From: Wenzhouxiangella sp. XN79A
GTDB taxonomy: Bacteria; Pseudomonadota; Gammaproteobacteria; Xanthomonadales; Wenzhouxiangellaceae
NCBI RefSeq assembly: GCF_012272825.1
Contig: NZ_JAAWWS010000157.1
Location: forward strand, 1-64,000
Reading direction: 5' to 3'
Length of the DNA stretch: 64,000 nt
This document shows, one piece after another, positions 17,451 through 31,799 of the stretch; positions within the stretch are counted from its first letter, which is position 1; each line of letters begins with the position of its first letter. The translations under genes were made by a program, and so were the position numbers. The notes under the pieces were generated by a model. The model was given only the letters and a program-made list of their open reading frames with translations. It searched no databases and had not been told where the DNA came from.

Positions 17451-19090
17451 TCCGCCGGGGCGTTCGGATCTTCGGCATTGCCGTGGTGCTGGCGCGCTAC
17501 CGGCTCGATGAGCTGCTGGTCGAACTGCCGCCGCTGAAGATGGCGCGAGCCGTTCGCCTGATCCCGTGGGGCCGCCGCCGGGTGCGCGAGCTGTCGCGCG
17601 GGGCGCGGCTGCGGCTGGCACTGGAAGAGCTCGGCCCGATCTACGTGAAGTTCGGACAGATCCTGTCGACCCGGCGCGACCTGCTGCCGGCCGACATCGC
17701 CGATGAACTGGCCGAGCTGCAGGACGCGGTGCCGCCGTTTCCGGGCGACCAGGCTCGTGCGATCGTCGAGCAGGAGCTCGGCAAGCCCATCGACCAGCTG
17801 TTCGCGCACTTCGACGCCGAGCCGATGGCCTCGGCCTCGATCGCCCAGGTCCACGGCGCGCGCTTTCACGATGGCCGCGAGGTGGTCGTCAAGGTCGTCC
17901 GACCGGGCATCGAGGGGCGGGTCCGCGAGGACCTGGAGCTGCTCGGCGCGCTGGCCCGCCTGGCTCGCCGCTACCACCCCGAGGGCGAGCGCATCCGGCC
18001 GAACGAAGTGGTGGCCGAATTCGAGCGGGTGATCGTCGACGAACTGGACATGCAGCGCGAAGGCGCCAACGCCAGTCTGCTGCGCCGCAACTTCGAGGAG
18101 TCCGACGAGCTGTACATCCCGGAGATCCACTGGTCGCATACCGCCGACCGCGTGCTGACGATGGAGCGGATCGGCGGCGTGCCGGTGCGCGACATCGAGG
18201 AACTCAAGCGTCAGGGCGTGAACATGGAACGGCTCGCGCGCCGCGGCATCCGGGTGTTCTATCAGCAGGTCTTCCGCGACAACCTGTTCCACGCCGACAT
18301 GCATCCGGGCAATATCCGGGTCGACACCAGCAACCCCGACGACGCCAGTTTCATCGCGCTGGACTTCGGCATCGTCGCCAGCCTGACGCCGATCGACCTG
18401 TACTACATCGGCGAGAATTTCCTCGCCATCTTCAACCGTGACTACCGGCGTGTGGCCGAGCTGCACGTCGAGGCCGGCTGGGTGCCGGCCGACACCCGGA
18501 TCGACGAGATGGAAGCCGCCGCGCGGACCGTCTGCGAGCCGAGCTTCACCCGGCCGCTGGAGGAAGTCTCCTTCGCCGAGCTGGTCATCAGCCTGTTCGA
18601 GGTCGCGCGCCGCTTCAAGCTGACCCTGCAGCCGCAGCTGATCATGCTGCAGAAGACGCTGCTCAACATCGAGGGCATGGGTCGCGACCTGTATCCGAAG
18701 ATCAACATCTGGGAGGTCGCCAAGCCCGAACTCGAATCGATCTTCCGCGAGCGCTACGGCTTCCGGCGAACCGCGCGCAAGGTCGGCCGGGAGTTGCCGG
18801 CCTGGGTGGCGCGCGGCCCGGAGATCCCGAACCTCATCCACGAAGCGCTGAAATTCGCGGCCCGCGGCCGGATTCGCGCCGAGCTGGACAGCCGCGATCT
18901 CGAGTCGATCGCCGACCGCGTCGGTACGCACAACCGGCGGACGCCCGGCGCGGTGTTGACCGCCGGCCTGCTGGTCGCCTCGGCGCTGCTGGCGGCCAAC
19001 GAAGTCGGCCCGTTTCTCGAGGGCCACTCGGTGCCGGCGATGATCGGCTTTGCGTTCAGCGCCCTGATCGCGTGGCAGGCGATGCGCTGA
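17447..19090 (+). CDS. ubiB: UbiB atypical kinase/ATPase for ubiquinone synthesis
   Basis: The 547-residue protein carries the ABC1/ADCK signature KFGQILSTRRDLLP, the Ala-rich loop MASASIAQVHGARF, the catalytic lysine in VVVKVVRPG, FHADMHPGNI and the metal-binding DFG in ALDFGIVASL. Two C-terminal hydrophobic helices (VLTAGLLVASALLAA and the final stretch) anchor it to the membrane. It is the last gene of ubiEJB. The 237 bases after it, before the convergent DUF6165 gene, show no gene. Confidence 0.95.
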   Translation: MIRRGVRIFGIAVVLARYRLDELLVELPPLKMARAVRLIPWGRRRVRELSRGARLRLALEELGPIYVKFGQILSTRRDLLPADIADELAELQDAVPPFPGDQARAIVEQELGKPIDQLFAHFDAEPMASASIAQVHGARFHDGREVVVKVVRPGIEGRVREDLELLGALARLARRYHPEGERIRPNEVVAEFERVIVDELDMQREGANASLLRRNFEESDELYIPEIHWSHTADRVLTMERIGGVPVRDIEELKRQGVNMERLARRGIRVFYQQVFRDNLFHADMHPGNIRVDTSNPDDASFIALDFGIVASLTPIDLYYIGENFLAIFNRDYRRVAELHVEAGWVPADTRIDEMEAAARTVCEPSFTRPLEEVSFAELVISLFEVARRFKLTLQPQLIMLQKTLLNIEGMGRDLYPKINIWEVAKPELESIFRERYGFRRTARKVGRELPAWVARGPEIPNLIHEALKFAARGRIRAELDSRDLESIADRVGTHNRRTPGAVLTAGLLVASALLAANEVGPFLEGHSVPAMIGFAFSALIAWQAMR

Positions 19091-19327
19091 CCGCTGGCCG
19101 GCATCGGTACCGGATCGGAGTCATCAGGCCTGACCTCGGGTGTTCCGAACGCCTTTCGGGTCGAGATCGACCGGCAGCTCCGGGGCGGGAGGAACGGCAA
19201 GCGCGCAACCCGCCGAACCGGCTGGGTGCGGACCCGCAGCACCGTCATGGACTCGAACGGCAGGCGCGGTTCGATCGCGATCGACGGCCCGATCCGGGAC
19301 GTTCGTGGCGGTGAGCGGTCCGCCGGC

Positions 19328-19723
19328 TCAGGCGTAGGGTCTGTAGCTCTTTTCTTCGAGGATGTTCGAGCCGAGCAGGTGGTTGAGATCTCGCTTGACT
19401 TCGGCACGGCGGTCGTTGGTCCGGTAGACCGAGCGGGCCAGTTCGACGAAGCGCTCACCGAAGTCGCCGCTGCGCTCGCAGTCGCGGATCGCGTCCTCGA
19501 TGTCCCACAGCGATTCGTTGATCCGCTTCAGTTCGGTGCGCTTGGCGGTGACCTCGGCGGTTTCCAGCGACGTGGCGTGCCACAGGCCGGTCAGCAGGTC
19601 GAGCTCGCGCTCGACGTTGTGCCGCTTGTCGGGATCGGCGATGCGCTCGGCCTTGATCTCGAGGATCGAGATCTTGTCGAGCAACTCACCGGGGGAGACG
19701 GGTACGGATAGGGTCTTTGTCAT
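19328..19723 (-). CDS. DUF6165 family protein
   Basis: The 131-residue soluble protein of unknown function matches the DUF6165 pattern, with the start VSPGELLDKISILEIKAERI and a helical body (LDLLTGLWHATSLETAEV, INESLWDIEDAIRDCE). It lies downstream of the pnp terminator on the same strand and is convergent with ubiB. Relatives often occur near polysaccharide or TPR genes, which are not seen here. Confidence 0.75.
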   Translation of the reverse strand: MTKTLSVPVSPGELLDKISILEIKAERIADPDKRHNVERELDLLTGLWHATSLETAEVTAKRTELKRINESLWDIEDAIRDCERSGDFGERFVELARSVYRTNDRRAEVKRDLNHLLGSNILEEKSYRPYA

Positions 19724-19738
19724 GGGTGTCCGGATAGC

Positions 19739-19769
19739 AAAAGGCCCGGGGCGCGGGGCGCCCCGGGCC
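19739..19769 (-). terminator. rho-independent terminator of pnp
   Basis: An 11-bp perfect stem (19743-19753 with 19759-19769) is followed on the minus strand by TTTT. It lies 17 bp after the pnp stop. Confidence 0.8.
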
Positions 19770-19785
19770 GGAAACGGAGAATGGA

Positions 19786-21879
19786 TCAGCCCTGCTCGAC
19801 GTCCTTCATGCTGAGCCGGATCCGGCCCTGCTTGTCGACTTCGAGCACCTTGACCTTGACCTTCTGGCCTTCGGAAAGTTCATCGGTCACATTCTCGACG
19901 CGGTCATTGGAGATCTGCGAGATGTGGACCAGGCCGTCCTTGCCGGGCAGGATCTGGACGAAGGCGCCGAAGTTCATGATCTTCTGCACCGTGCCTTCGT
20001 AGATCGTGCCGACTTCGACGTCGGCGGTGATCTGCTCGATCCGGCGACGCGCATCGTCTGCGGCGTCCTTGTTGGCCGAAGCGATGGTGATCGTGCCGTC
20101 ATCGGCGATGTCGATCTGGGTGCCCGTTTCTTCGGTGATCGCGCGGATGGTCGAACCGCCCTTGCCGATCACGTCACGGATCTTGTCCGGGTGGACCTTC
20201 ATCGTGAACAGGCGCGGCGCATACTCGCTCATTTCTTCGCGCGGCTTGTCCAGCACCTTGTTCATTTCACCGAGGATGTGCAGACGGCCGGCCTTGGCCT
20301 GCTCCAGCGCGGCGTGCATGATCTCGCGGGTGATGCCATCGATCTTGATGTCCATCTGCAGGGCGGTCACGCCCTCGGCGGAGCCTGCGACCTTGAAGTC
20401 CATGTCGCCGAGGTGGTCCTCGTCGCCGAGGATGTCGGTCAGGACCGCGAACTTGTCGCCTTCCTTGATCAGGCCCATCGCGATGCCCGCGACCGGGGCC
20501 TTGACCGGCACGCCGGCGTCCATCAGGGCCAGCGAGGTGCCGCAGACCGAAGCCATCGAGCTCGAGCCGTTCGACTCGGTGATCTCCGAGACCACGCGCA
20601 GCACGTACGGGAACTCTTCCGGGCTCGGCACCACGGCCATCACGCCGCGCTTGGCCAGCCGGCCGTGGCCGATCTCGCGGCGCTTCGGCGCCAGCATGTG
20701 GTTGGTCTCGCCGACGCAGAACGGCGGGAAGTTGTAGTGCAGCATGAAGGGGTCCTTGTACTCCCCTTCGATCGCGTCGATGATCTGCGCGTCGCGGCCG
20801 GTGCCCAGCGTGGCCACGACCATGGCCTGGGTTTCGCCGCGGGTGAAGATCGCCGAGCCGTGCGTGCGCGGCAGCGTGCCGACCTGCACGTCGATCGGAC
20901 GCACGGTGGTCAGGTCGCGGCCGTCGATGCGCGGCTTGCCGTCGATGATCTGGCTGCGAACGTAGTTCTTTTCCATCGCGCCGAACGCGCTCTTGACCTC
21001 GTCGACGGTCCAGGCGGTGTCTTCGCCTTCCGGGCACAGGGTTTCGACGACCTTGCCGCGGACCTCGGAGATCGCTTCGTGGCGCTGCATCTTGTCGGTG
21101 TTCCGGTAGGCGGCTTCCAGACCGGCCAGGCCCAGTTCGCGGACCTTGTCGTCCAGGCCTTCCGGCTTGGCCGGGGCTTCCCAGGCCCACTTCGGCTTGC
21201 CGGCCTCGGCAGCCAGTTCGTTGATCGCCTGGATCGCGGTCTGCATCTGGTCATGGCCGAAGGTGACGGCGCCGAGCATTTCTTCTTCGGTCAGCAGGTC
21301 GGCTTCGGATTCGACCATCAGCACGGCCTGATCGGTACCGGCCACGATCAGGTCGAGGCGCGATTCCTTCAGCTGGCTGGCCGACGGGTTCAGCACGTAC
21401 TCGCCGTTGACGAAGCCGACGCGGGCGCCGCCGATCGGGCCCTGGAACGGGGCGCCGGACAGGGCCAGCGCGGCCGAGGCGCCGATCAGGGCCGGGATGT
21501 CGCCGTCGACTTCCGGGTTCAGCGACATGACGGTCGCGATGACCTGGACTTCATTCAGGAAACCCTTCGGGAACAGCGGACGGATCGGGCGATCGATCAG
21601 CCGCGAGGTCAGGGTTTCCTTCTCGGTCGGGCGGCCTTCACGCTTGAAGAAGCCGCCCGGAATCTTGCCGGCGGAGTAGAACTTCTCCTGATAGTTGACC
21701 GTGAGCGGGAAGAAGTGCTGGCCGGGCTTGGCTTCGGGCCGGGCGACGGCGGTAACCAGCACCACGGTGTCGCCCATGGTGACGAGGACGGCGCCGGTGG
21801 CCTGGCGGGCCAGGTGGCCGGTTTCCAGCGTGACGGTGTGCTCGCCGTACTGGAAGGATTTGGTGACTTTGTTGAACAC
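19786..21879 (-). CDS. pnp: polynucleotide phosphorylase
   Basis: The 697-residue enzyme degrades RNA 3'-5' by phosphorolysis and is a degradosome component. It has two RNase PH domains (N-terminal [13 protein letters not shown]; second [15 protein letters not shown] with FTRGETQAM), a KH domain ([16 protein letters not shown]) and a C-terminal S1 domain ([20 protein letters not shown]). Length and order are canonical. It follows rpsO on the minus strand across a hairpin-bearing spacer. Confidence 0.97.
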
Positions 21880-21973
21880 TGAGAATTACTCCAAGGGACG
21901 GAAGGGGACACTCGAACATCGCGCTCCGGGGCTCGGTCCGAACAAGCGAACGAACGCGAGCGCCAGATACGAC

Positions 21974-22011
21974 GAAGCACCGGTCGTTGAATCAACAACA
22001 ACCGGTGCTTC
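21974..22011 (-). promoter_or_regulatory. hairpin in the rpsO-pnp spacer
   Basis: An 11-bp perfect stem (GAAGCACCGGT with its complement at 22001-22011) stands just after rpsO. It has no T-run on the minus strand. The rpsO-pnp spacer of enterobacteria carries an attenuator and RNase III processing hairpin, and this one is placed the same way. The role is inferred. Confidence 0.6.
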
Positions 22012-22037
22012 TGAATCACATGCGTCGCGAGGGGCGC

Positions 22038-22307
22038 TTAACGGCGCAGGCCGAGGCGCTGGACGATGTCGCGGTACCGCTGAACGTCCTTGTTGCGGAC
22101 GTAGTCGAGCAGCGAGCGACGCTGGTTGACCAGCTTGATCAATCCGCGACGGGAGTGGTGATCACCCTTGTGGTCCTTGAAATGGCCGGTCAGGTGCTTG
22201 ATGCGTGCGGTCAGCAGCGCGATCTGCACTTCCGGCGACCCGGTATCGCCACTCGAGAGCTGATACTCCGAAACGATCTGCTGTTTCTGTTCTGCGCTCA
22301 AAGACAT
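22038..22307 (-). CDS. rpsO: 30S ribosomal protein S15
   Basis: The 89-residue protein starts [16 protein letters not shown] and contains the S15 signatures [16 protein letters not shown] and [11 protein letters not shown], ending QRLGLRR. It binds 16S rRNA in the platform. The upstream in-frame extension to 22382 is 5' leader, so ATG 22307 is the start. A long leader with stem-loops precedes it, as expected for an S15 gene that may control its own translation (not shown here). Confidence 0.97.
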
Positions 22308-22507
22308 GTTCGTCTTAACTCCAGATGCAATGGCTTGCGTTTGTCGGTAGCGACTGGTGCTTCGCTCGTGGTTTCGAATCATGGTTTCAAACGGCGACCG
22401 GGCTTTTCCAGAAAACCCCCTCGGCGGGCGGCGCTAGGGCCGGATCCGGTGTACATCCGAAGGCGGGCTTTGTGCAAAAGCCCCGATCACCACCAATCAA
22501 GCTGGCC

Positions 22508-22537
22508 ATTATACGGCGATTCGACCGGGTGGGGCAA
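22508..22537 (-). promoter_or_regulatory. sigma-70 type promoter of rpsO-pnp
   Basis: On the minus strand TTGCCC (22532-22537) and TATAAT (22508-22513) are spaced 18 bp. This predicts a leader of about 190 nt before rpsO. Near its 5' end is a GGGCTTT-loop-AAAGCCC stem around 22470-22490. Confidence 0.7.
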
Positions 22538-22593
22538 GAGCAAGAGGCAATCGTGAAAGCGCCCGTCGGCCGGCCGACGGCAGGGCCGGACCG

Positions 22594-24891
22594 TCAGGCG
22601 CCCAGCCGCTGACGAGCCCGGGCGAACATCGAGCCGTCCGGGAACCGGCCGTCCAGCGATTTACCGGGGTGGTGACCGGCCAGCAGGTCCAGCGCCTGGG
22701 CCACCGTGCCGATGGCCTGGACCTGGAACAGGTCGTTGGCGGCCGCCTGGACCAGCCGCGGGCTCAGCATCAGTTCGTCGCGCTGCGCGGCCGGGATCAC
22801 CACGGTCGGCGGCACGCCGCGATCGTCGAGGCGGGTCAGCTCGAACAGCGTCTCGATCCGGTCGTTCAGGCCGTCGACCGGCAGGATCCGGCCGAACAGG
22901 TCGACCCGCCCGATCAGCGCGACGTCCTGGCGCAGCCCATCGCCGGTCAGTCGGCTGACCAGCGCGCACAAGCCGGTCAGCGCGAATCCGTCGCCGGGCG
23001 CGGGATCGCGGTCGTGGGGGTCGGCGGCGTGCGCGTCCAGCACCGCGTGCAGCCGCGGCGGGCGGTCGAGCTCGAGCAGCGTGCCGAGCAGCGCTTCGAT
23101 CCGGTCGGGCCCTTCGTCGACCCGGTCCGGCAGCGTGATGCGGGTGTCGTCGGCGCGCGTCACCGCCGCCTGGATGCGGACCAGTCGCCCGGAGCCGCGC
23201 GCACCGTCCTCGCGCAGCGCGACGGTCCAGGCCTGTCCGGGCAGCGGCTGGCGGGCGGGAAACCGTCCGGGTCCGGTCGCAGGGCCGGCGCCGAACAGCC
23301 GCGTGGTGCTGACCATGGCGCGCTCGATGGCGGCTTCGACATGATCGGCATCGAGCCGCGTTTCGCCGCGCTCCCGGGCGATCCGCGAGGCGGCACGGGC
23401 CCGGGCGACCAGCCGATCGATCGATGTCGACAGGCCGCCCCGGCCATCGAGCCGGGCCGCTTCCTCGACCAGCCGGGCCAGCGCCTCGGGTCGGGGCGGG
23501 GGCAGTTCGTAGCGCGCGCACTCGGCCTGCAGCAGGGCGCCCAGGGCGCGGACATGCGCCTGGTCGCGCTCGACACGATCGGGCAGGTCGATGACCTGGT
23601 CGATGCTGCGGGCCAGCTCCGGGTGGCGCTGGTTCAGCGTCCGCCAGGCTTCGGCCGAGCCGATCAGGGCCAGCTGGAACTCGACCGGAATGGGGTCGGG
23701 CTTCAGCGACGCCCCGGGGGCGCCGCGGTCCAGCGCCTCCAGCGTCAATTCGCCGCCGACCAGCGTGCGCTGCAGCCGGTGGACGCAGTCCGGGTGTTCG
23801 AGCAGCACGTCGGCATCGAGCACCAGCAGGCCGCCGCTGGCCTGCAGCAACCGGCCGGCGCGCAGGCCGCGGAACGAGGCGCGGCCGGTCGCGTCGGCGT
23901 CGATCGAGCCGAACAGGTTGCGGGCGTTCGGGTGGGGTTCGACGACCACCGGGGCGGTGCCGTTCGGGTCCACGGCCATCACCAGGTTCACCGAATACCG
24001 GCCCTCCAGGTCCAGCTCGCCGATCCGGCCGCCGCCGACGCCGTGTTCGAGCACGTCGTCCATGACGGCGTTCAGGTAGTGCGACACGGCGGGCAGTTCG
24101 AAGCTCTCGTCGACGCTGCGCATCAGGCCGGCCAGCAGCCGGCGCGCCTCGGTCTGGACCAGCCGGGTACCCAGGTCCTGGACCCGTCGCCAGATCTCGT
24201 TGACCCGGGTGGTGATGCGGGCGAGTTCGTCCTGTTCGGTGTGGATCACCTCGCGAATGCTGCGGTACTCCTCGCGATCGACCTGGCCCTTGGCGACCAG
24301 GTTGGCCAGGTCGTCCTGCGAAATCACCCGGCCGGTCTGCTTGACGTGGACGGTCAGCCGGACCAGCCGGCCGACCTCTTCGCGGACCAGCACCAGGCCG
24401 TGCGGCCTGAAGCGTTCGTCGAGCGGGTCGGTGATCTTGCGCATCTCGGCATCGGCGCGGTCGGTCAGTGCCTGCAGCCGGTTGCGGATCGGCCGGGCCT
24501 CCAGCGCCGGTTCGAGCTGGTCGCGCAGGAAGCGGATCACCTGGCGCATTTCGGCCCGCAAACGACGGCCCTGGCCGGCGGGCAGTTCGAGCAGCCGGGG
24601 CTGGTGCGGGTGGTCGAAGTTGAACACGTAGACCCGGTCGGTGCCGTCGGCCCGGGGTGTCTGGCGCTGGTCGAGGACGCGCTCGATCAGCCGGCGGCGG
24701 CCGCTGCCGGGGCGCCCGCGCAGGAACAGGTGGGGCTGGTCGCCGTCGCTGCCGCGCAGCGCGCTGGCCAGCGCGTCGATCGCGGCATCACTGCCGATCG
24801 CGATCGGCGCCTCGGCGGTGTCGAGGTTCTCGAGCAGGTCCGGTCGGACATTCCAGCGGAGCTGGCCGGCGGACAGTCTGGTGTTGGCCAT
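22594..24891 (-). CDS. Lon-like AAA protein (LonB/YcbZ type) lacking the protease dyad
   Basis: The 765-residue protein has the layout of the YcbZ/LonB-type putative proteases: a degenerate AAA domain, a helical insert, and a C-terminal Lon S16 domain. The S16 domain aligns well around LTGLCALVSRLTGDGLRQDV and GRVDLFGRILPVDGLNDRIE. The catalytic Ser of the GDSAS motif is Gly635 (PGDGFAL), and the catalytic Lys of the LNEKIE-type motif is Arg678. The P-loop reads GRPGSGRRR, with Arg65 in place of Lys; P-loop decay is known in this family. It is probably not a protease, perhaps a scaffold or regulator. The frame is intact over 2.3 kb, so it is not simply decaying. ATG 24891 follows GGGGG. Confidence 0.85.
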   Translation of the reverse strand: MANTRLSAGQLRWNVRPDLLENLDTAEAPIAIGSDAAIDALASALRGSDGDQPHLFLRGRPGSGRRRLIERVLDQRQTPRADGTDRVYVFNFDHPHQPRLLELPAGQGRRLRAEMRQVIRFLRDQLEPALEARPIRNRLQALTDRADAEMRKITDPLDERFRPHGLVLVREEVGRLVRLTVHVKQTGRVISQDDLANLVAKGQVDREEYRSIREVIHTEQDELARITTRVNEIWRRVQDLGTRLVQTEARRLLAGLMRSVDESFELPAVSHYLNAVMDDVLEHGVGGGRIGELDLEGRYSVNLVMAVDPNGTAPVVVEPHPNARNLFGSIDADATGRASFRGLRAGRLLQASGGLLVLDADVLLEHPDCVHRLQRTLVGGELTLEALDRGAPGASLKPDPIPVEFQLALIGSAEAWRTLNQRHPELARSIDQVIDLPDRVERDQAHVRALGALLQAECARYELPPPRPEALARLVEEAARLDGRGGLSTSIDRLVARARAASRIARERGETRLDADHVEAAIERAMVSTTRLFGAGPATGPGRFPARQPLPGQAWTVALREDGARGSGRLVRIQAAVTRADDTRITLPDRVDEGPDRIEALLGTLLELDRPPRLHAVLDAHAADPHDRDPAPGDGFALTGLCALVSRLTGDGLRQDVALIGRVDLFGRILPVDGLNDRIETLFELTRLDDRGVPPTVVIPAAQRDELMLSPRLVQAAANDLFQVQAIGTVAQALDLLAGHHPGKSLDGRFPDGSMFARARQRLGA

Positions 24892-24928
24892 CGTCCCCCG
24901 ATCCTCTCGCAGTGCCCGATGCCATTCT

Positions 24929-25091
24929 AGTGCACCCCGTCACTCATTGTGCAACGTACAGCGAGTCGGAGCGCGTTTGGCTGCAAGGCCTGTCTGGCAG
25001 GGAATGGCAGCGTCCTTTCCAGGCGACAGAACGCCGCAGATGAATGCGCTCCGGCTCGCTGTACGTCACACAATGAGTGGCGGGGTACCCT
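24929..25091 (+). repeat. palindromic MITE-like element, family A copy 1
   Basis: The 163-bp element has terminal inverted repeats of about 44 bp with few mismatches (shared core CACTCATTGTG then CGTACAGCGAG). The interior includes TTTGGCTGCAAGGCCTG and GTCCTTTCCAGG. Homologous copies lie at 28611-28787 (inverted) and 31668-31799 (truncated). It fills most of the spacer between the Lon-like gene and the hydrolase gene. No coding frame was found. Confidence 0.8.
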
Positions 25092-25147
25092 GGCGCGGAA
25101 CATCGCGCGTGCCGAGTCGTCGCCATCGGGCGGCGGCCGCCCGGTCC

Positions 25148-26086
25148 TCACGGCTCGAGGCGGTCCCGGGCACGCTTCTCCGTGTAGCTGATCCAGGACT
25201 CGGCCACGGTGCAGGGGTTTTCCAGCATCGGCAGGTGGCCGGTGTCGGGCAGCAGCAGGACCTCGGCGTTCGGCATCACGCGCTCGAGTACGGCGGCCCC
25301 GGCCGGGTTCAGCACCTGGTCGGAGCGTCCCCAGACCACCAGCGCCGGCGTGGCCAGGCCGTCGGCGATGCTCTCCAGCGGTTCGGAGTCGTAGCGGATC
25401 GCGTCGAAGGCGCGCTGGTGCTCGAGGGTCCTGTCGGTGGCCCGGCGGGCAAGGTGGCGCATCAGTGGGCCGGGAATCCACGGGGGGTGGACGAAGCAGT
25501 AGTCGATCAGGCGGCGGAAATCGTCGAGATCGCGGATCACCAGCGGATTGTGGCGCTCCTCGGCGATTTCCTGGAACAGCGGCGAATGCGGCACCTCGAG
25601 CACCCCGCCCGGGGCAAGCAGCCAGAGCGCCCGGACCCGCCCGGGGGCTCGTCGGGCGATCTCGGTGGCGATGTAGCCGCCCATCGAGCTGCCCCCGAGG
25701 TAGCAGTGCTGAATGCCGACGGCATCCATCCAGGCCAGCACGCGCTCGGCCTGGGCACTGATCCGATAGTCGGGTGGTCCATCGACCCGCGTTTCGCCGA
25801 AACCGGGCAGATCGGGCGCGAGAATCCGGAAGTGCCGGCTCAGGTGGCGGGCGACCCGGTTGAAGTGGTCGGCGTCGGCGTTGAAGCCGTGGAGCAGCAC
25901 CAGGGTTTCGCCGCGCCCGCCCTCGAGCACGTGCCAGTCGATCGGCCCGGTGGTCACGCGACAGGAGCGCAGCCGGCCGTGGCGTCGATCCAGCGCGCGG
26001 AAGGTGATCGCGATCGGTGCCGTCCAGATCCGCCACAGCACCACGGCGATCAGCAGCGCGATTCCCAGCGTCAGCAGCGGTGTCAT
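25148..26086 (-). CDS. alpha/beta hydrolase with N-terminal membrane anchor
   Basis: The 312-residue protein begins with one hydrophobic helix (residues 4-20), then a hydrolase domain: oxyanion region VLLHGFNADADHF, nucleophile elbow GGSSMGGY, acid in VVWGRSDQVLN and catalytic His in DTGHLPML. The family covers esterases and lipases; the substrate cannot be told. ATG 26086 is followed at once by the hydrophobic helix. It stands alone on the minus strand, with MITE A copy 1 after its stop. Confidence 0.85.
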   Translation of the reverse strand: MTPLLTLGIALLIAVVLWRIWTAPIAITFRALDRRHGRLRSCRVTTGPIDWHVLEGGRGETLVLLHGFNADADHFNRVARHLSRHFRILAPDLPGFGETRVDGPPDYRISAQAERVLAWMDAVGIQHCYLGGSSMGGYIATEIARRAPGRVRALWLLAPGGVLEVPHSPLFQEIAEERHNPLVIRDLDDFRRLIDYCFVHPPWIPGPLMRHLARRATDRTLEHQRAFDAIRYDSEPLESIADGLATPALVVWGRSDQVLNPAGAAVLERVMPNAEVLLLPDTGHLPMLENPCTVAESWISYTEKRARDRLEP

Positions 26087-26282
26087 GGGTCCCCGATGGT
26101 AGAATGCCGGCTCCTAGTGTAGTGGGATTCGACCCGGTGTCCAGACGCCGTTTCCGAGCCCGTTCGCGGCCTGGCTGGATCGCTGCTGCGGATCGGGATC
26201 GGCGCGCCGGTCCCGACGCCCGCCACACGACGTTCCTCGCATCATCCCCCGACCCCGATCGGATTTCGAGGCCGCAGCACGC

Positions 26283-27056
26283 ATGGACGATTCGATTTCG
26301 CAGCAGTTCGGCCAGGACGGCTACTGGGTGGCGCGCGGACTGTGTCCGGCCGACCGCGTGGCCGCGATGCGCGCCGCCGCCGAAGCGGCGCTGGCCCGCC
26401 GCAGGCCGCCTTTCGAACTCGAAAGCGAGGTCGGTTACCCCGGCGCGCCGAGCATCGACGCGCCGGGCAGCGACACCATCCGGCGCTTGCTCGATGCGCT
26501 GGCGCTGGATCCACTGTTCTTCGACTGGGCCTGCGATCCGCAGCTGGTCGGGCGGGTGCGCAAGCTGCTCGACGCAGGGTCGATCCGCGTGGTCCGCGCC
26601 CATCACAACTGCGTGATGACCAAACTGCCGGAATTCTCCAGCGCCACCGGCTGGCACCAGGACCTGCGCTACTGGGCCTTCGAGCGCCCCGAATTGATCA
26701 CTGCATGGACGGCTCTGGGGTTCGAGGCCGAAGGCAATGGCGGCATGCGGGTGATTCCCGGTTCGCACCGGGCCGGGTTGGAGCCCGAGCGCTTCGATGC
26801 GCAGCGCTTCTTCCGCACCGACCTGCCGGCCAATCGCGATTGGCTGGAGCGCGCCGTCCAGGTCGATCTCGAACCCGGCGACGTGCTGTTCTTCCATGCC
26901 GGCCTGCTCCATGCCGCCGGCGCCAATCGCACCGACCGGCGCAAGCTGTCGGTGGTGTTTTCCTACCGCGCCACCGACAACCCGCCGCGGCCGGGCAGCC
27001 GGTCCGCGGCGCGTCCCGATCTCGATCCGGACCGGCCGGCGGACTTCGAGGAATGA
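26283..27056 (+). CDS. phytanoyl-CoA dioxygenase (PhyH) family protein
   Basis: The 257-residue Fe(II)/2-oxoglutarate dioxygenase has its metal motif in GWHQDLRYW (His-x-Asp) with the distal His in HAGLLHAAGANRT, followed by an Arg-rich RRKLSVVFSYR that can bind 2-oxoglutarate. The substrate is unknown; the family hydroxylates diverse small molecules. Its stop overlaps the next gene by 4 bp, so it leads a three-gene plus-strand unit with two transporters. Confidence 0.85.
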   Translation: MDDSISQQFGQDGYWVARGLCPADRVAAMRAAAEAALARRRPPFELESEVGYPGAPSIDAPGSDTIRRLLDALALDPLFFDWACDPQLVGRVRKLLDAGSIRVVRAHHNCVMTKLPEFSSATGWHQDLRYWAFERPELITAWTALGFEAEGNGGMRVIPGSHRAGLEPERFDAQRFFRTDLPANRDWLERAVQVDLEPGDVLFFHAGLLHAAGANRTDRRKLSVVFSYRATDNPPRPGSRSAARPDLDPDRPADFEE

Positions 27057-27580
27057 ACCTGGTGCTGGGCATGATCGCGGCGATGATGGTCATCGTCGCC
27101 AGCGCCAACGTGCTGGTCCAGTACCCGGTCAACGACTGGCTGACCTGGGGCGCGCTGACCTACCCGGTCAGTTATTTCGTGACCGACCTGACCAATCGAC
27201 TGCGCGGCCCGGCAGTGGCCCGTCGCGTGGTCTGGGCGGGCTTCGCGCTGGCGGTGCTGCTGTCGGCGGTGCTGGCCACCCCCCGTATCGCACTGGCTTC
27301 CGGTGCCGCGTTCCTGGCCTCGCAGCTGCTCGACGTGGCGGTGTTCGACCGCCTGCGCGGACGGGCCTGGTGGCAGCCGCCGCTGTTTTCCTCGGTGATT
27401 GGATCGGCGCTGGATACCGCGCTGTTCTTCGCGCTGGCCTTCGCCGGCACGACGATGCCCTGGATGACGCTCGCGCTCGGCGACTACGCGGTCAAGGTCG
27501 CGATCGCGCTGGTCATGCTGGCACCGTGGTGGTGGCTGGCCCGACGGGCGCGGCGGACGCCGGGCGACCGCCATGGGTGA
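27053..27580 (+). CDS. queuosine precursor transporter (YhhQ/VUT family)
   Basis: The 175-residue membrane protein has about five to six hydrophobic helices. The family pattern is visible as LTYPVSYFVTDLTNR and SQLLDVAVFDRLRGRAWW. Members import preQ0/preQ1, the substrates for Tgt. It overlaps the PhyH gene (ATGA) and the EamA gene. With tgt at 13168 it suggests the organism salvages queuosine precursors; no queCDEF genes are in the window. Confidence 0.82.
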   Translation: MNLVLGMIAAMMVIVASANVLVQYPVNDWLTWGALTYPVSYFVTDLTNRLRGPAVARRVVWAGFALAVLLSAVLATPRIALASGAAFLASQLLDVAVFDRLRGRAWWQPPLFSSVIGSALDTALFFALAFAGTTMPWMTLALGDYAVKVAIALVMLAPWWWLARRARRTPGDRHG

Positions 27581-28448
27581 GTTCTTCTCGGTCGCCTGCG
27601 CGGCGGCCTGGGCGATGGCGGTGGTGCTGTTCCGGCGCTCCGGCGAAACCCTGCCGGCGTTCGAGCTCAACCTGTTCAAGAACCTGCTCGGGCTGGCCCT
27701 GCTGGTGCCGACCGTGCTGCTGACCGAGGGGCTCGGCCTGCCCGGCTACACGGCCTCGCAGTGGCTGGTCGTGGCGGTGTCCGGCGTGATCGGCATCGCC
27801 GTGGCCGACACCTGGTACCTGAAGGCGCTGAACCTGATGGGCGCGGCCCGGACCGGGGTGACGGCCAGCCTGTACAGCCCGTTCGTGATCCTGCTGTCGA
27901 TCCTGTTCCTGGGCGAGGTCATGGCGTTGTGGCAGCTGGCCGGCTTCGCGCTGGTCCTCGCCGGCATCCTGCTGGTCACCTGGCGGACGAACCGGATGGA
28001 CATCACGATGCGGGCGCTGAAGCTGGGCGTGGCCTACGGCGCCGGTTCGGTGCTGCTGATGGCGATCGGCGTGGTGATGGTCAAGCCGGTGCTGGAGGGC
28101 GACGACTTCTTCTGGACCGTGGCGCTCAGGCTCGGCGCAGGGACCGCCGCGATGCTGGCGCTGGTCGCGATCGCCGGCAGCGGTCGGCGGGTGATGGCCC
28201 GATACCGCGAGCCGCAGCCCTGGCCGACCGTGGTGCTGGCCTCGTTTCTCGGCACCTACCTTTCGATGATCCTGTGGCTGGCCGGGTACCGCCTGACCGA
28301 TGCATCGATCGCCTCGGTGCTCAACGAGACCGCGGCGGCCTTCATCGTGCTGTTTTCCTGGTGGGTGCTGAAGGAGCCGCTGAGCGGGCGCCGGATCGGC
28401 GGCGTGGTGCTGACCTTTGCCGGCGTGCTGGTGATCGTTTCGGTCTAG
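27573..28448 (+). CDS. EamA/DMT-family transporter
   Basis: The 291-residue protein has ten hydrophobic helices arranged as two EamA repeats; the second repeat starts near residue 148 and ends LFSWWVLKEPLSGRRIGG. The family exports metabolites; the substrate is not predictable. It overlaps the transporter before it by 8 bp. Its TAG stop (28446-28448) is part of the left end of MITE B copy 1, so the insertion fixes the C-terminus VIVSV. Confidence 0.87.
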   Translation: MGEFFSVACAAAWAMAVVLFRRSGETLPAFELNLFKNLLGLALLVPTVLLTEGLGLPGYTASQWLVVAVSGVIGIAVADTWYLKALNLMGAARTGVTASLYSPFVILLSILFLGEVMALWQLAGFALVLAGILLVTWRTNRMDITMRALKLGVAYGAGSVLLMAIGVVMVKPVLEGDDFFWTVALRLGAGTAAMLALVAIAGSGRRVMARYREPQPWPTVVLASFLGTYLSMILWLAGYRLTDASIASVLNETAAAFIVLFSWWVLKEPLSGRRIGGVVLTFAGVLVIVSV

Positions 28449-28613
28449 CCCGCATTATTCATGAATGAGCTCGCGCCCTTGCCTGGTCCTTGTCCGCACA
28501 GCGAATCGTCCTCGCTCGGAAATACAGCATGGTAGTCCGCTCGGTCGGAAAATCCCCTGTGCGAACGATTCCCGGCGCAATCATCGCGGCGATTCATGAA
28601 TACTGCGGGCTAG
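28445..28613 (+). repeat. 169-bp MITE-like element, family B copy 1
   Basis: The element starts and ends with CTAG and has about 22-bp terminal inverted repeats (CTAGCCCGCA, one mismatch, TATTCATGAAT). A second copy at 31908-32076 is the same length in reverse orientation and differs at only about five positions. Its left CTAG contains the eamA stop. The right CTAG abuts MITE A copy 2. No transposase is present, so it must be mobilised in trans. Confidence 0.85.
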
Positions 28614-28787
28614 TGAGCCCCGTCATCACTCCTGGACCGTTCAGCGAGTCGGAACGTGCTCATCCGCCGCGTCAGGGGTCCTGGAAAGGCGCTACGCATT
28701 CCCGGCGCGCCCTGCCTTGCAGCCAAGCGGGCTCGTCGTCACGATCCGACTCGCTGAACGGTCCAGGAGTGATGACGGGGTGCACCA
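28611..28787 (-). repeat. palindromic MITE-like element, family A copy 2
   Basis: This 177-bp copy is inverted relative to copies 1 and 3. Its ends pair over about 40 bp (shared CCCCGTCATCACTCCTGG and CAGCGAGTCGGA). Its interior read on the minus strand repeats TTGGCTGCAAGGC and CCTTTCCAGG. It follows MITE B copy 1 without a gap. Confidence 0.78.
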
Positions 28788-28822
28788 GTGGCCTCGCCCG
28801 AGGCAGCTCCGATCCGAGGCGT

Positions 28823-29395
28823 TCAGGGCTTGCGTGGTCGATCGGGTCCGGTCGTCGGGGAGCGTCTGCCCGGTCGGTCGGCCGGTTTCGCGGGGCCGTC
28901 GGCGCCCCCGGCGGCCGCTTCGCGCCGGCGCTTCCGCCACTGGACGGCGCCGATCGGTGCCCGGCACAGCAGTTCGTAGAGCAGCACCGCGAAAACGATG
29001 CCGAGCCCGGTCCAGGTCAGCGACGCGATGTCGAGCGGGATCGCCGGCACGAATATTCCGGCGGCGCGCTCGGCGATCGACCACTCGCCGTGCCGCAGCA
29101 GTGCGAGCGGGCGGAGCAGGTCCGGTGCGTCCTGGATGCGCTGCTGCAGCGCGGCAAGCTCGTCGAGCCGGAGCTGGAGTTCGGCGACCGCGGTTGCCCG
29201 GCCTTCCGGCGCCAGCCACGGCAGCAGCTCACCGGCCGTGACCTGCTCGACGGTGCGGCGGGCCTCGTCGACGTGGCCGCCGAGCCGCTGAAGGTAGGCC
29301 TGGGTGAAGGCCGGGGCCTGCGAGAACGTGATCCCGCCGGCGCCCCCGAAGGCGGCGCTGGCCAGGTGGTCCAGGCGTCGCGTCAGCCAGCTCAT
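28823..29395 (-). CDS. DUF2937 family membrane protein
   Basis: The 190-residue protein has a hydrophobic helix near its start (LASAAFGGAGGITFSQ), a helical soluble middle, and a strong membrane segment near residues 128-148 (LTWTGLGIVFAVLLYELLC), then a basic, disordered tail. This fits DUF2937; function unknown. Its ATG overlaps the yidD stop (ATGA), so the two are co-translated. Confidence 0.75.
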   Translation of the reverse strand: MSWLTRRLDHLASAAFGGAGGITFSQAPAFTQAYLQRLGGHVDEARRTVEQVTAGELLPWLAPEGRATAVAELQLRLDELAALQQRIQDAPDLLRPLALLRHGEWSIAERAAGIFVPAIPLDIASLTWTGLGIVFAVLLYELLCRAPIGAVQWRKRRREAAAGGADGPAKPADRPGRRSPTTGPDRPRKP

Positions 29396-29715
29396 GAACC
29401 CGGGCCGGGCCGGTGGTCCGGATCGGCGGGGGACCCGTGGGGTTGCGCGCGCTGGGTGCCGATCGCGGCGTCATCGGTGCCGGCCAGCTCGGCTTCGGCC
29501 TCGCTGCCCGGCACGGGGTCGTGTCCACCGGCGCAGAACGGCTGGCAGCGCAGGATGCGCTTGAAGCCCATCCAGCTGCCGCGGCCGGCGCCGTAGAGCT
29601 CGATCGCTTCCTCGGTGTAGCGCGAGCAGCTGGGCGTGAATCGGCACTGCTGTCCGATCAGCGGCGACAGGACCCGGCGATAGACGTGGATGAGGCCGAT
29701 CAGGAGCCGTTGCAT
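29392..29715 (-). CDS. yidD: membrane protein insertion efficiency factor YidD
   Basis: The 107-residue protein has the YidD core MQRLLIGLIHVYRRVLSP, CRFTPSCSRYTEEAIE and GFKRILRCQPFCAGGHDP, then an extra acidic, Pro-rich tail of about 37 residues. YidD helps YidC insert inner-membrane proteins. It is usually in the rpmH-rnpA-yidD-yidC cluster; here it is paired with DUF2937 and diverges from dksA. ATG 29721 is an alternative start two codons upstream. Confidence 0.9.
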   Translation of the reverse strand: MQRLLIGLIHVYRRVLSPLIGQQCRFTPSCSRYTEEAIELYGAGRGSWMGFKRILRCQPFCAGGHDPVPGSEAEAELAGTDDAAIGTQRAQPHGSPADPDHRPGPGS

Positions 29716-29720
29716 GACCA

Positions 29721-29751
29721 TTGTGTCCGAGTGCGAAACGAGGTATATAAT
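29721..29751 (+). promoter_or_regulatory. probable dksA promoter
   Basis: A TATAAT box at 29746-29751 has a weak TTGTGT at 29721-29726 (19-bp spacing). Transcription would start about 105 bp before dksA and pass through the 24-bp repeats. The -35 lies over the yidD start region. Confidence 0.45.
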
Positions 29752-29782
29752 CGCGGGTTTGTCGACGCGCTGACTGGCCTTG

Positions 29783-29855
29783 CGCTGACCAATCGCTGAC
29801 CCATCGCTGAACCAGCGGGCTGACCCATCGCTGAACCAGCGGGCTGACCTAGCGG
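29783..29855 (+). repeat. 24-bp tandem repeats in the dksA leader
   Basis: Two perfect 24-bp units (29795-29818 and 29819-29842) are flanked by partial copies on both sides, all built on GCTGAnCCAtCGCTGAACC. They end 10 bp before the dksA start, so copy-number change would alter the leader. Confidence 0.75.
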
Positions 29856-29864
29856 GATGAATCC

Positions 29865-30293
29865 ATGCCAACCGATCGAGTGAAACTGCCGAAGAACTAT
29901 CGGCCGACCGAGAAAGAAGAATACATGAACGCCAAGCAGCTGGAGTATTTCCGCCAGAAGCTGCTGGCCTGGCGTCAGGACCTGATCGACGAGTCGCAGG
30001 AGACGATCAACAACCTGCGCGGCGAGGTCCGGGACGTCGGTGACGAGGCCGAGCGCGCCTCGCGCGAGACCGAGAACAGCCTGGAACTGCGTACTCGCGA
30101 CCGGTACCGCAAACTGCTCGGCAAGATCGACCAGGCGCTGGCCCGGATCGACGACGGCAGCTACGGCTACTGCGAGGAGACCGGCGAGGAAATCGGCCTG
30201 GCGCGGCTCGAGGCCCGACCGATCGCGACCCTGTGCCTGGACGCCCAGGAGCGCTGGGAGCTGAAGCAGAAGCAGATGCGCGATAGCCGTTGA
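29865..30293 (+). CDS. dksA: RNA polymerase-binding factor DksA, two-cysteine type
   Basis: The 142-residue protein binds the RNA polymerase secondary channel and works with ppGpp. It has a coiled-coil (residues about 25-95) with acidic tip residues in RDVGDEAERAS, then a zinc-finger-like region. Only two of the four usual zinc cysteines remain: Cys103-EE-Thr106 and Cys124-LD-Ala127. The CxxT/CxxA pattern is known from zinc-independent DksA2 of Pseudomonas and from alphaproteobacterial DksA. The stop codon lies in the first unit of a 13-bp tandem repeat. ATG 29865 has GGGA upstream. Confidence 0.9.
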   Translation: MPTDRVKLPKNYRPTEKEEYMNAKQLEYFRQKLLAWRQDLIDESQETINNLRGEVRDVGDEAERASRETENSLELRTRDRYRKLLGKIDQALARIDDGSYGYCEETGEEIGLARLEARPIATLCLDAQERWELKQKQMRDSR

Positions 30294-31667: not shown

Positions 31668-31799
31668 GGGGTACCCCACCACTCATTGTGTACCGTATAG
31701 CGAGTCGGAGAGCGTTTGGCTGCAAGGCCTGTCTCGCGGGGAATGGCAGCGTCCTTTCCAGGCGACGGAACGCCGCGGATGAAGGCGCTCCGGCTCGCC
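31668..31799 (+). repeat. MITE-like element, family A copy 3 (right end lost)
   Basis: This copy matches copy 1 closely from GGGTACCCC through TTTGGCTGCAAGGCCTG and GCTCCGGCTCGC, then stops. The outer 30 bp of the right inverted repeat are missing. The 108 bases up to MITE B copy 2 are unassigned. Confidence 0.78.

Follow-up and report, generated by a model that had tools for sequence, protein, structure and literature searches.

The window, i.e. the whole stretch of 64,000 nucleotides of Wenzhouxiangella sp. XN79A that was analysed, hosts a gene encoding a Lon-like protein of 765 amino acids, starting at an ATG as given in the preliminary description. The gene, its parts and the features found around it are listed in Table 1. 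In a Pfam search of the protein the AAA_32, LonC_helical, LonB_AAA-LID and Lon_C families all scored above their own cut-offs. LonC_helical (PF20437) reached 51.3 bits against a cut-off of 24; the signal of Lon_C (PF05362), found over residues 616-730, is weak (E 1.2e-6, 28.7 bits, cut-off 21.1). The N-terminal module comprises the beginning of the AAA module, in degenerate form, together with LonC_helical (residues 85-117) and long helices. The AAA_32 core features a Walker B-like LVLDA motif without the Glu. The open frame of 765 codons had been taken as an argument for selection; alone it proves nothing, because the DNA is about 70% GC and an antisense ORF of 753 amino acids spans the same region.

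Table 1. Position of the pseudoprotease gene, its parts and the flanking features in the window.
Feature	Coordinates	Strand	Basis or remark
pnp	19786..21879	-	directly downstream of pseudoprotease, with rpsO
rpsO	22038..22382	-	directly downstream of pseudoprotease, with pnp
Gene of the putative LonC-lineage pseudoprotease, 765 aa	22594..24891	-	Pfam, phmmer, AlphaFold2 model; closest structure MtaLonC
S16 (Lon protease) domain without dyad, residues 546-745	22657..23256	-	Pfam PF05362, S16 structures
Antisense ORF, 753 aa	22669..24930	+	
Arg678 codon, Lys625 position of MtaLonC	22858..22860	-	alignment; passages of PMC3391209
Gly635 codon, Ser582 position of MtaLonC	22987..22989	-	alignment
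AAA_32 core (312-428) and LID (468-524), residues 297-545	23257..24003	-	Pfam
N-terminal module, residues 1-296	24004..24891	-	Pfam PF20437; per-domain rates
Arg65 codon, P-loop Lys position	24697..24699	-	alignment
Palindromic multicopy repeat, 56-nt arms	24929..25091		between hydrolase and pseudoprotease start; outside protein
Alpha/beta-hydrolase, Ser134/Asp256/His284	25148..26086	-	directly upstream of pseudoprotease, conserved neighbour
ORF of 238 aa between PhyH and EamA	26963..27679	-	overlaps both at its ends

The palindromic repeat, about 160 bp long and with arms 82% complementary, lies 37 bp upstream of the pseudoprotease start codon. Further copies were found in the window at 31673-31798 and, weaker (71%), at 28638-28788. 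A search of the same genome gave 51 matches (E up to 1e-3), some of which are the same place read on the opposite strand; among the 40 of 56 candidates that were scored, 30 places, the 24929-25091 unit included, match at 84% at least over at least 90 nt. The unit looks like a MITE or a REPIN-type element. No RNA element reached the Rfam gathering score in the 18000-30000 interval. The 238-aa ORF located between PhyH and EamA is probably not a gene, its dN/dS being 0.945 (LRT 0) in the comparison with genome G004.

In phmmer alignments to chains of the LonC of Meiothermus taiwanensis (MtaLonC), Gly635 is aligned with Ser582, and Arg678 with the Lys found 43 residues further, and both catalytic replacements had thus been correctly recognised from the start. 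According to passages of PMC3391209, K625 is the catalytic lysine of MtaLonC; S582A mutants of the enzyme are named in titles of PDB entries. The AlphaFold2 model of the protein has pLDDT 88.5 and pTM 0.72, figures to be read with a bias towards the intact fold, as the alignment supplied to the program included intact homologues. By VIA-align the model superposes on MtaLonC 7euy (Z 33.3, 4.0 A, 554 residues) and on the cryo-EM MtaLonC chain 8k8v (Z 32.0, 677 residues aligned), and Foldseek pairs it with MtaLonC at E 1.4e-41. The S16 part of the model matches A. fulgidus Lon (Z 20.1, 2.7 A, 188 residues), and S16 structures superpose on residues 546-745 at Z about 17-20; RadA (5lkq) and BrxL (8emh) are also among the structural matches of the model. 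The notion that the S16 domain aligns well is upheld by the predicted fold; the sequence signal is weak. Curated models of the other Lon types fit poorly. Archaeal LonB (TIGR00764) scored 51 bits, far below the curated cut-off of 516.6, and the LonA models PRK10787 and TIGR00763 scored 28.7 against 891 and 18 against 608 bits, respectively. Full-length architecture, predicted fold, LonC_helical and degenerate Walker A and B motifs are those of the LonC lineage, and the Ser-Lys dyad of the LonC enzymes is lacking. Judging from sequence and modelled structure, the protein is a LonC by descent, and neither a LonB nor a YcbZ, the families with which an alignment had been proposed; in E. coli YcbZ, which falls far outside as an outgroup, GDSAS and Lys are both retained.

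Relatives were searched in 121 related genomes. Matches were found in 103, many of them only to canonical Lon. Sixty-three AAA_32/S16 proteins were fetched and aligned, and fall into 23 dyad-less proteins, 21 intact orthologues and 19 intact paralogues; this set does not include a dyad-less copy split over two contigs (G023), nor the partial paralogue of G037. The 23 dyad-less copies, the one in the window included, come from 23 genomes of the family Wenzhouxiangellaceae, which rules out a sequencing error at both sites, as the Lys is lost in all and the Ser in 17. The paralogues (L049, L051-L068) represent a second LonC-type protein with GDSA and Lys intact. A tree of 50 rows (23 dyad-less proteins, 21 intact orthologues, 6 paralogues) was built from residues 1-545 alone, with the protease domain excluded in order to keep the trait itself out of the data. 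All dyad-less rows lie on one side of a single branch (support 99/97, 98% of 200 bootstrap trees), and dyad loss requires one change. The sister row of the clade is an intact protein of the same family (G007); L038 sits on a long branch, and its placement is less certain. Since the 23 dyad-less rows form one clade beside 21 intact orthologues, the dyad would, most simply, have been lost once, in the ancestor of one Wenzhouxiangellaceae clade. A scan of 84,980 species genomes, seeded with patterns of the dyad-less clade and hence an uneven sample of LonC, retrieved 68 loci. Seventeen are of the dyad-less type and are labelled Wenzhouxiangella, Wenzhouxiangellaceae, Lysobacterales, Lysobacteraceae or Gammaproteobacteria; in two (L143 and L144) the catalytic sites lie outside coverage. 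GDSA and Lys are kept in 48 of the remaining 49 loci, spanning Planctomycetota to Clostridia, and in the last one (L133) the frame is disrupted.

At the catalytic columns, Lys is missing in all the 23 dyad-less rows, replaced by Arg in 20 and by Ser, Cys and Gln in one each. The Ser column holds Ala (9 rows), Ser (6), Gly (4), Thr (2), Asp (1) and Glu (1), so that Ser is absent in 17 rows, and none of the 23 combines Ser and Lys. Both residues are kept in 21/21 intact orthologues and in 19/19 fetched paralogues. A check for a clade sharing Gly and Arg had been proposed: the loss is shared, and so largely is the Arg, but Gly is a minority residue. The Arg65 replacing the P-loop Lys, also pointed out in the preliminary description, is correctly placed but not odd. 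It is no mark of inactivation, because all the 21 intact orthologues have Arg there, as do all the 23 dyad-less rows; the paralogues feature Arg (14), Ala (4) or Ser (1), and the Lys is kept by many relatives in other phyla. Similarly, the Walker B Asp is followed by Ala in 23/23 dyad-less rows and 19/21 intact orthologues. The P-loop change is therefore older than the loss of proteolysis, and carries no information on it. LonC insert 1, CX3GLX(G/E), is unrecognisable in the window copy, where Thr replaces the Cys and the GL is missing; the Cys is kept in 18 of the 23 dyad-less rows. The eroded insert of the window copy fits slow decay, and counts against the explanation favoured below.

By computation the pseudoprotease frame is under purifying selection. 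The maximum likelihood (ML) dN/dS (GY94) of the window gene and its G004 counterpart is 0.077, with a likelihood ratio (LRT) of 332 against a value of 1; for the S16 domain alone it is 0.110 (LRT 55). In the seven other dyad-less pairs whole-gene values range from 0.027 to 0.059, and over all eight pairs, one row being used twice, from 0.027 to 0.077, with LRT of 332-644; several dS are saturated, and two of the S16 fits have unbounded dS. NG86 estimates for the window pair are higher, 0.46 for the whole gene and 0.78 for S16. YN00 failed for many pairs, NG86 and YN00 were replaced by the ML fit, and the latter is trusted over NG86 since it takes account of the extreme codon composition. Neighbouring genes compared by ML in the same genome pair gave 0.047 (pnp), 0.062 (hydrolase), 0.051 (EamA), 0.014 (DksA) and 0.037 (cysS); the dS of PhyH was unbounded, and rpsO gave 0.271 at low dS. 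That a false gene does not pass the test is shown by an unannotated frame, which returned 0.945 with an LRT of 0 when compared with G004. No internal stop was found in the 25 dyad-less type matches listed. Decay of the window copy to a pseudogene through frame disruption was rejected, as the frame is open and the ML test shows it to be under selection. Of what had been proposed initially, the dN/dS check came out in favour of selection, and a non-proteolytic role is likely in view of the clade-wide loss and of the purifying ML values.

Selection is not evenly distributed along the protein. Branch lengths were summed on a fixed topology, taken from a tree in which S16 was included. For the N-terminal, AAA and S16 parts they amount to 7.57, 13.01 and 13.91 in the dyad-less clade, to 10.33, 6.32 and 3.29 in the intact orthologues, and to 6.73, 6.13 and 4.01 in the paralogues. 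The S16/N rate ratio is accordingly 1.84, 0.32 and 0.60 in the three groups. In subsets it varies from 1.69 to 2.71 for dyad-less proteins and from 0.26 to 0.38 for intact orthologues, and is 0.74 for the paralogues of the window's family. The N-terminal module (residues 1-296) is the slowest-evolving part within the dyad-less clade. Entropy tells the same: over residues 105-290 the clade lies below the intact orthologues (ratios 0.64-0.71), over residues 551-625 it is 4-5 times higher, in the Lys helix 7.6 times, and over residues 707-745 nearly equal (ratio 1.12). The dyad-less clade keeps 12 and has lost 42 of the 102 S16 positions conserved in intact orthologues; of the 38 such positions in the N-terminal module it keeps 18 and has lost 5. 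The focus of constraint has shifted away from the protease domain and onto the N-terminal module. In parts of the dyad-less clade, clade-specific fixed sites fall preferentially within this module. An excess of these sites was rejected as proof of a new function, as intact clades have them too (9 in the dyad-less clade, 20 and 15 in the intact clades f9 and f8, 21 in the paralogues).

The net charge of residues 1-296 averages +8.7 in the dyad-less rows (range -2 to +15), -6.7 in the intact orthologues and -16.3 in the paralogues. This shift does not track the loss of the dyad, because the window copy has a charge of -1, whereas a value of +6 is already reached in the sister row G007, which is intact; G011 has -2.

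The hydrolase gene was found directly upstream, on the same strand, at all the 17 dyad-less loci examined (16 called by cluster, plus G002) and at two of four intact loci; the triad is intact in 40/40 rows. Of the 43 family genomes, 40 encode the hydrolase, whether or not the dyad-less gene is present; it was rejected as a dedicated partner, as it persists where that gene is missing. A functional link to the rpsO-pnp operon was similarly rejected. Among the loci examined only the four belonging to the same genus as the window show the adjacency; wherever pnp and rpsO were seen in other genera, they are further off and on the opposite strand. The dyad-less gene is present in 24 of the 43 family genomes (G023, split over contigs, included), an intact orthologue in one, and neither in 18, some of which are incomplete. 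The gene is absent from G001, a 99% complete genome of the same genus, in which the rpsO and hydrolase matches are about 530 bp apart. Set on the hydrolase tree, a quick one with long branches, the presence pattern requires seven changes, at least three of which are forced by supported branches. Repeated loss seems likelier than repeated gain, because the linkage to the hydrolase occurs also outside the family (G059). The pseudoprotease is therefore useful but dispensable, not essential, as 18 of the 43 genomes are without the gene, probably by repeated loss. The window's genome encodes a canonical Lon (contig C17) and, on contig C14, a protein that we take to be RadA-like from its KNRFG motif. 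No second AAA_32 or LonC-type protein was found in it. Elsewhere, 13 of the 24 genomes with the dyad-less gene host also a LonC-type paralogue, with the dyad seen intact in 12, the exception being the unfetched G037 copy.

The explanation that we favour is the following. The gene descends from that of a LonC protease, a type already lacking a working ATPase; most simply in the ancestor of the clade, the Ser-Lys dyad disappeared as well, so that this Lon was deprived of both motor and blade. The S16 domain would serve as assembly platform of a putative ring, and the N-terminal module would bind a protein client or partner, as holdase or adaptor. That the pseudoprotease is kept for some non-proteolytic role is highly probable. 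A ring specifically binding proteins, as holdase or adaptor, is a role that we infer, and its chances fall slightly below even. The statement as a whole, i.e. a LonC-derived pseudoprotease with an S16 platform and an N-terminal module binding a client or partner, may equally well hold or fail. Still more tentatively, the clade may keep a full-length LonC ring without ATP hydrolysis or cutting, which would hold clients independently of ATP or act as a scaffold dedicated to binding a partner. That a client is held and not cut is plausible, because S582A LonC has been solved with lysozyme, according to the title of PDB entry 8k91. Passages of PMC11612176 describe the Lon-like domain of RadA and ComM as a hexamerisation module.

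Alternatively, the gene might be a relic on its way out, drifting towards loss after proteolysis ceased, under residual selection. The 18 family genomes with neither form of the gene (some incomplete), the changes on the hydrolase tree, the absence in G001 and the NG86 value of the window S16 domain are all in line with decay. Whole-gene ML dN/dS far below 1 in 8/8 dyad-less pairs, frames free of stops in the matches listed, and an entropy of residues 105-290 lower than in the intact orthologues speak against it, and make this course unlikely. Quite improbable is a ring binding nucleic acids, to be compared with the S16-like domains of the DNA motors RadA and ComM. The mean positive charge of the N-terminal module and the clade-invariant R136, R138, R170 and R251 would suit it, and E. 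coli YcbZ is two-hybrid positive with RNase E according to passages of PMC13232886. Yet the window and G011 copies are slightly negative, the window S16 domain has a charge of -7, no working motor is recognisable by sequence, and the proximity to rpsO-pnp is confined to one genus; that the intact sister G007 is already at +6 makes binding of nucleic acids less likely.

The protein could also regulate an intact LonC paralogue, by forming mixed rings or competing for clients. Paralogues with a seemingly intact dyad do accompany it in about half of the genomes, but they are only 27-30% identical to it, and no second AAA_32 match was found in the window's genome, G004, G011 and G022 (91-99% complete). 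In the window's genome, where no second AAA_32 protein was found, it is unlikely to form mixed rings with an active LonC or to compete with an active LonC sister; the competition with active Lon initially envisaged would there concern the canonical Lon. As a general account, regulation of a paralogue has slender chances. Slimmer by far are those of a protease still working through other residues. Ser occupies the nucleophile column in six of the 23 rows, and Asp710 (16/23), Lys715 (17/23) and Asp720 (19/23) are conserved in the dyad-less clade and not in the intact orthologues. However, no Ser, Thr, Cys or His of S16 became newly conserved in 16 or more of the 23 rows, C686 (18/23) and T738 (19/23) were already common in intact orthologues, and the Asp of GDSAS is lost in 17/23.

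Compared to known systems, the candidate client- or partner-binding protein is closest to MtaLonC (PDB 4fw9, 7eux, 8k8v; MEROPS S16.007), with which it shares full-length architecture, predicted fold and an AAA module without normal ATPase residues. According to passages of PMC3391209, LonC proteins lack canonical AAA+ motifs, and MtaLonC has no ATPase activity and binds ATPgammaS. MtaLonC differs in being an active protease (Ser582/Lys625) that keeps the P-loop Lys. Intact orthologues of the same order, such as that of Marinicella marina (L100), belong to the same subfamily and feature the same P-loop Arg and, in half of the loci examined, the same upstream hydrolase; in these, in contrast, the GDSAS...NEK dyad is intact, and the protease domain is the slowest-evolving part. 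E. coli YcbZ also combines an S16 domain and an AAA_32-type module, as matched in a Pfam control search of E. coli, but is 586 amino acids long, has an intact dyad and is very distant. RadA, ComM and BrxL share the S16-like fold, and these Lon-like domain proteins are not known to be proteases. RadA and ComM carry working ATPase motors (PMC11612176), and the window protein has by sequence no such motor.

Inactive S16 proteins as such are no novelty, as family S16 includes non-peptidase homologues (PMC9569914); a LonC clade that lost both activities, with intact sisters and measured selection, was not found in the open-access literature searched. What the Wenzhouxiangellaceae provide is a traceable loss, most simply a single event: intact orthologues are at hand, 23 complete or almost complete copies are under selection, and the displacement of constraint away from the protease domain has been measured. 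Wenzhouxiangella sediminis XDB06 is an environmental bacterium. In organisms such as this, the question of what a Lon ring does besides cutting becomes testable. If the explanation holds true, the clade would be a natural experiment in which binding by Lon can be told apart from proteolysis, and in which the loss can be assigned to a given branch of the tree.
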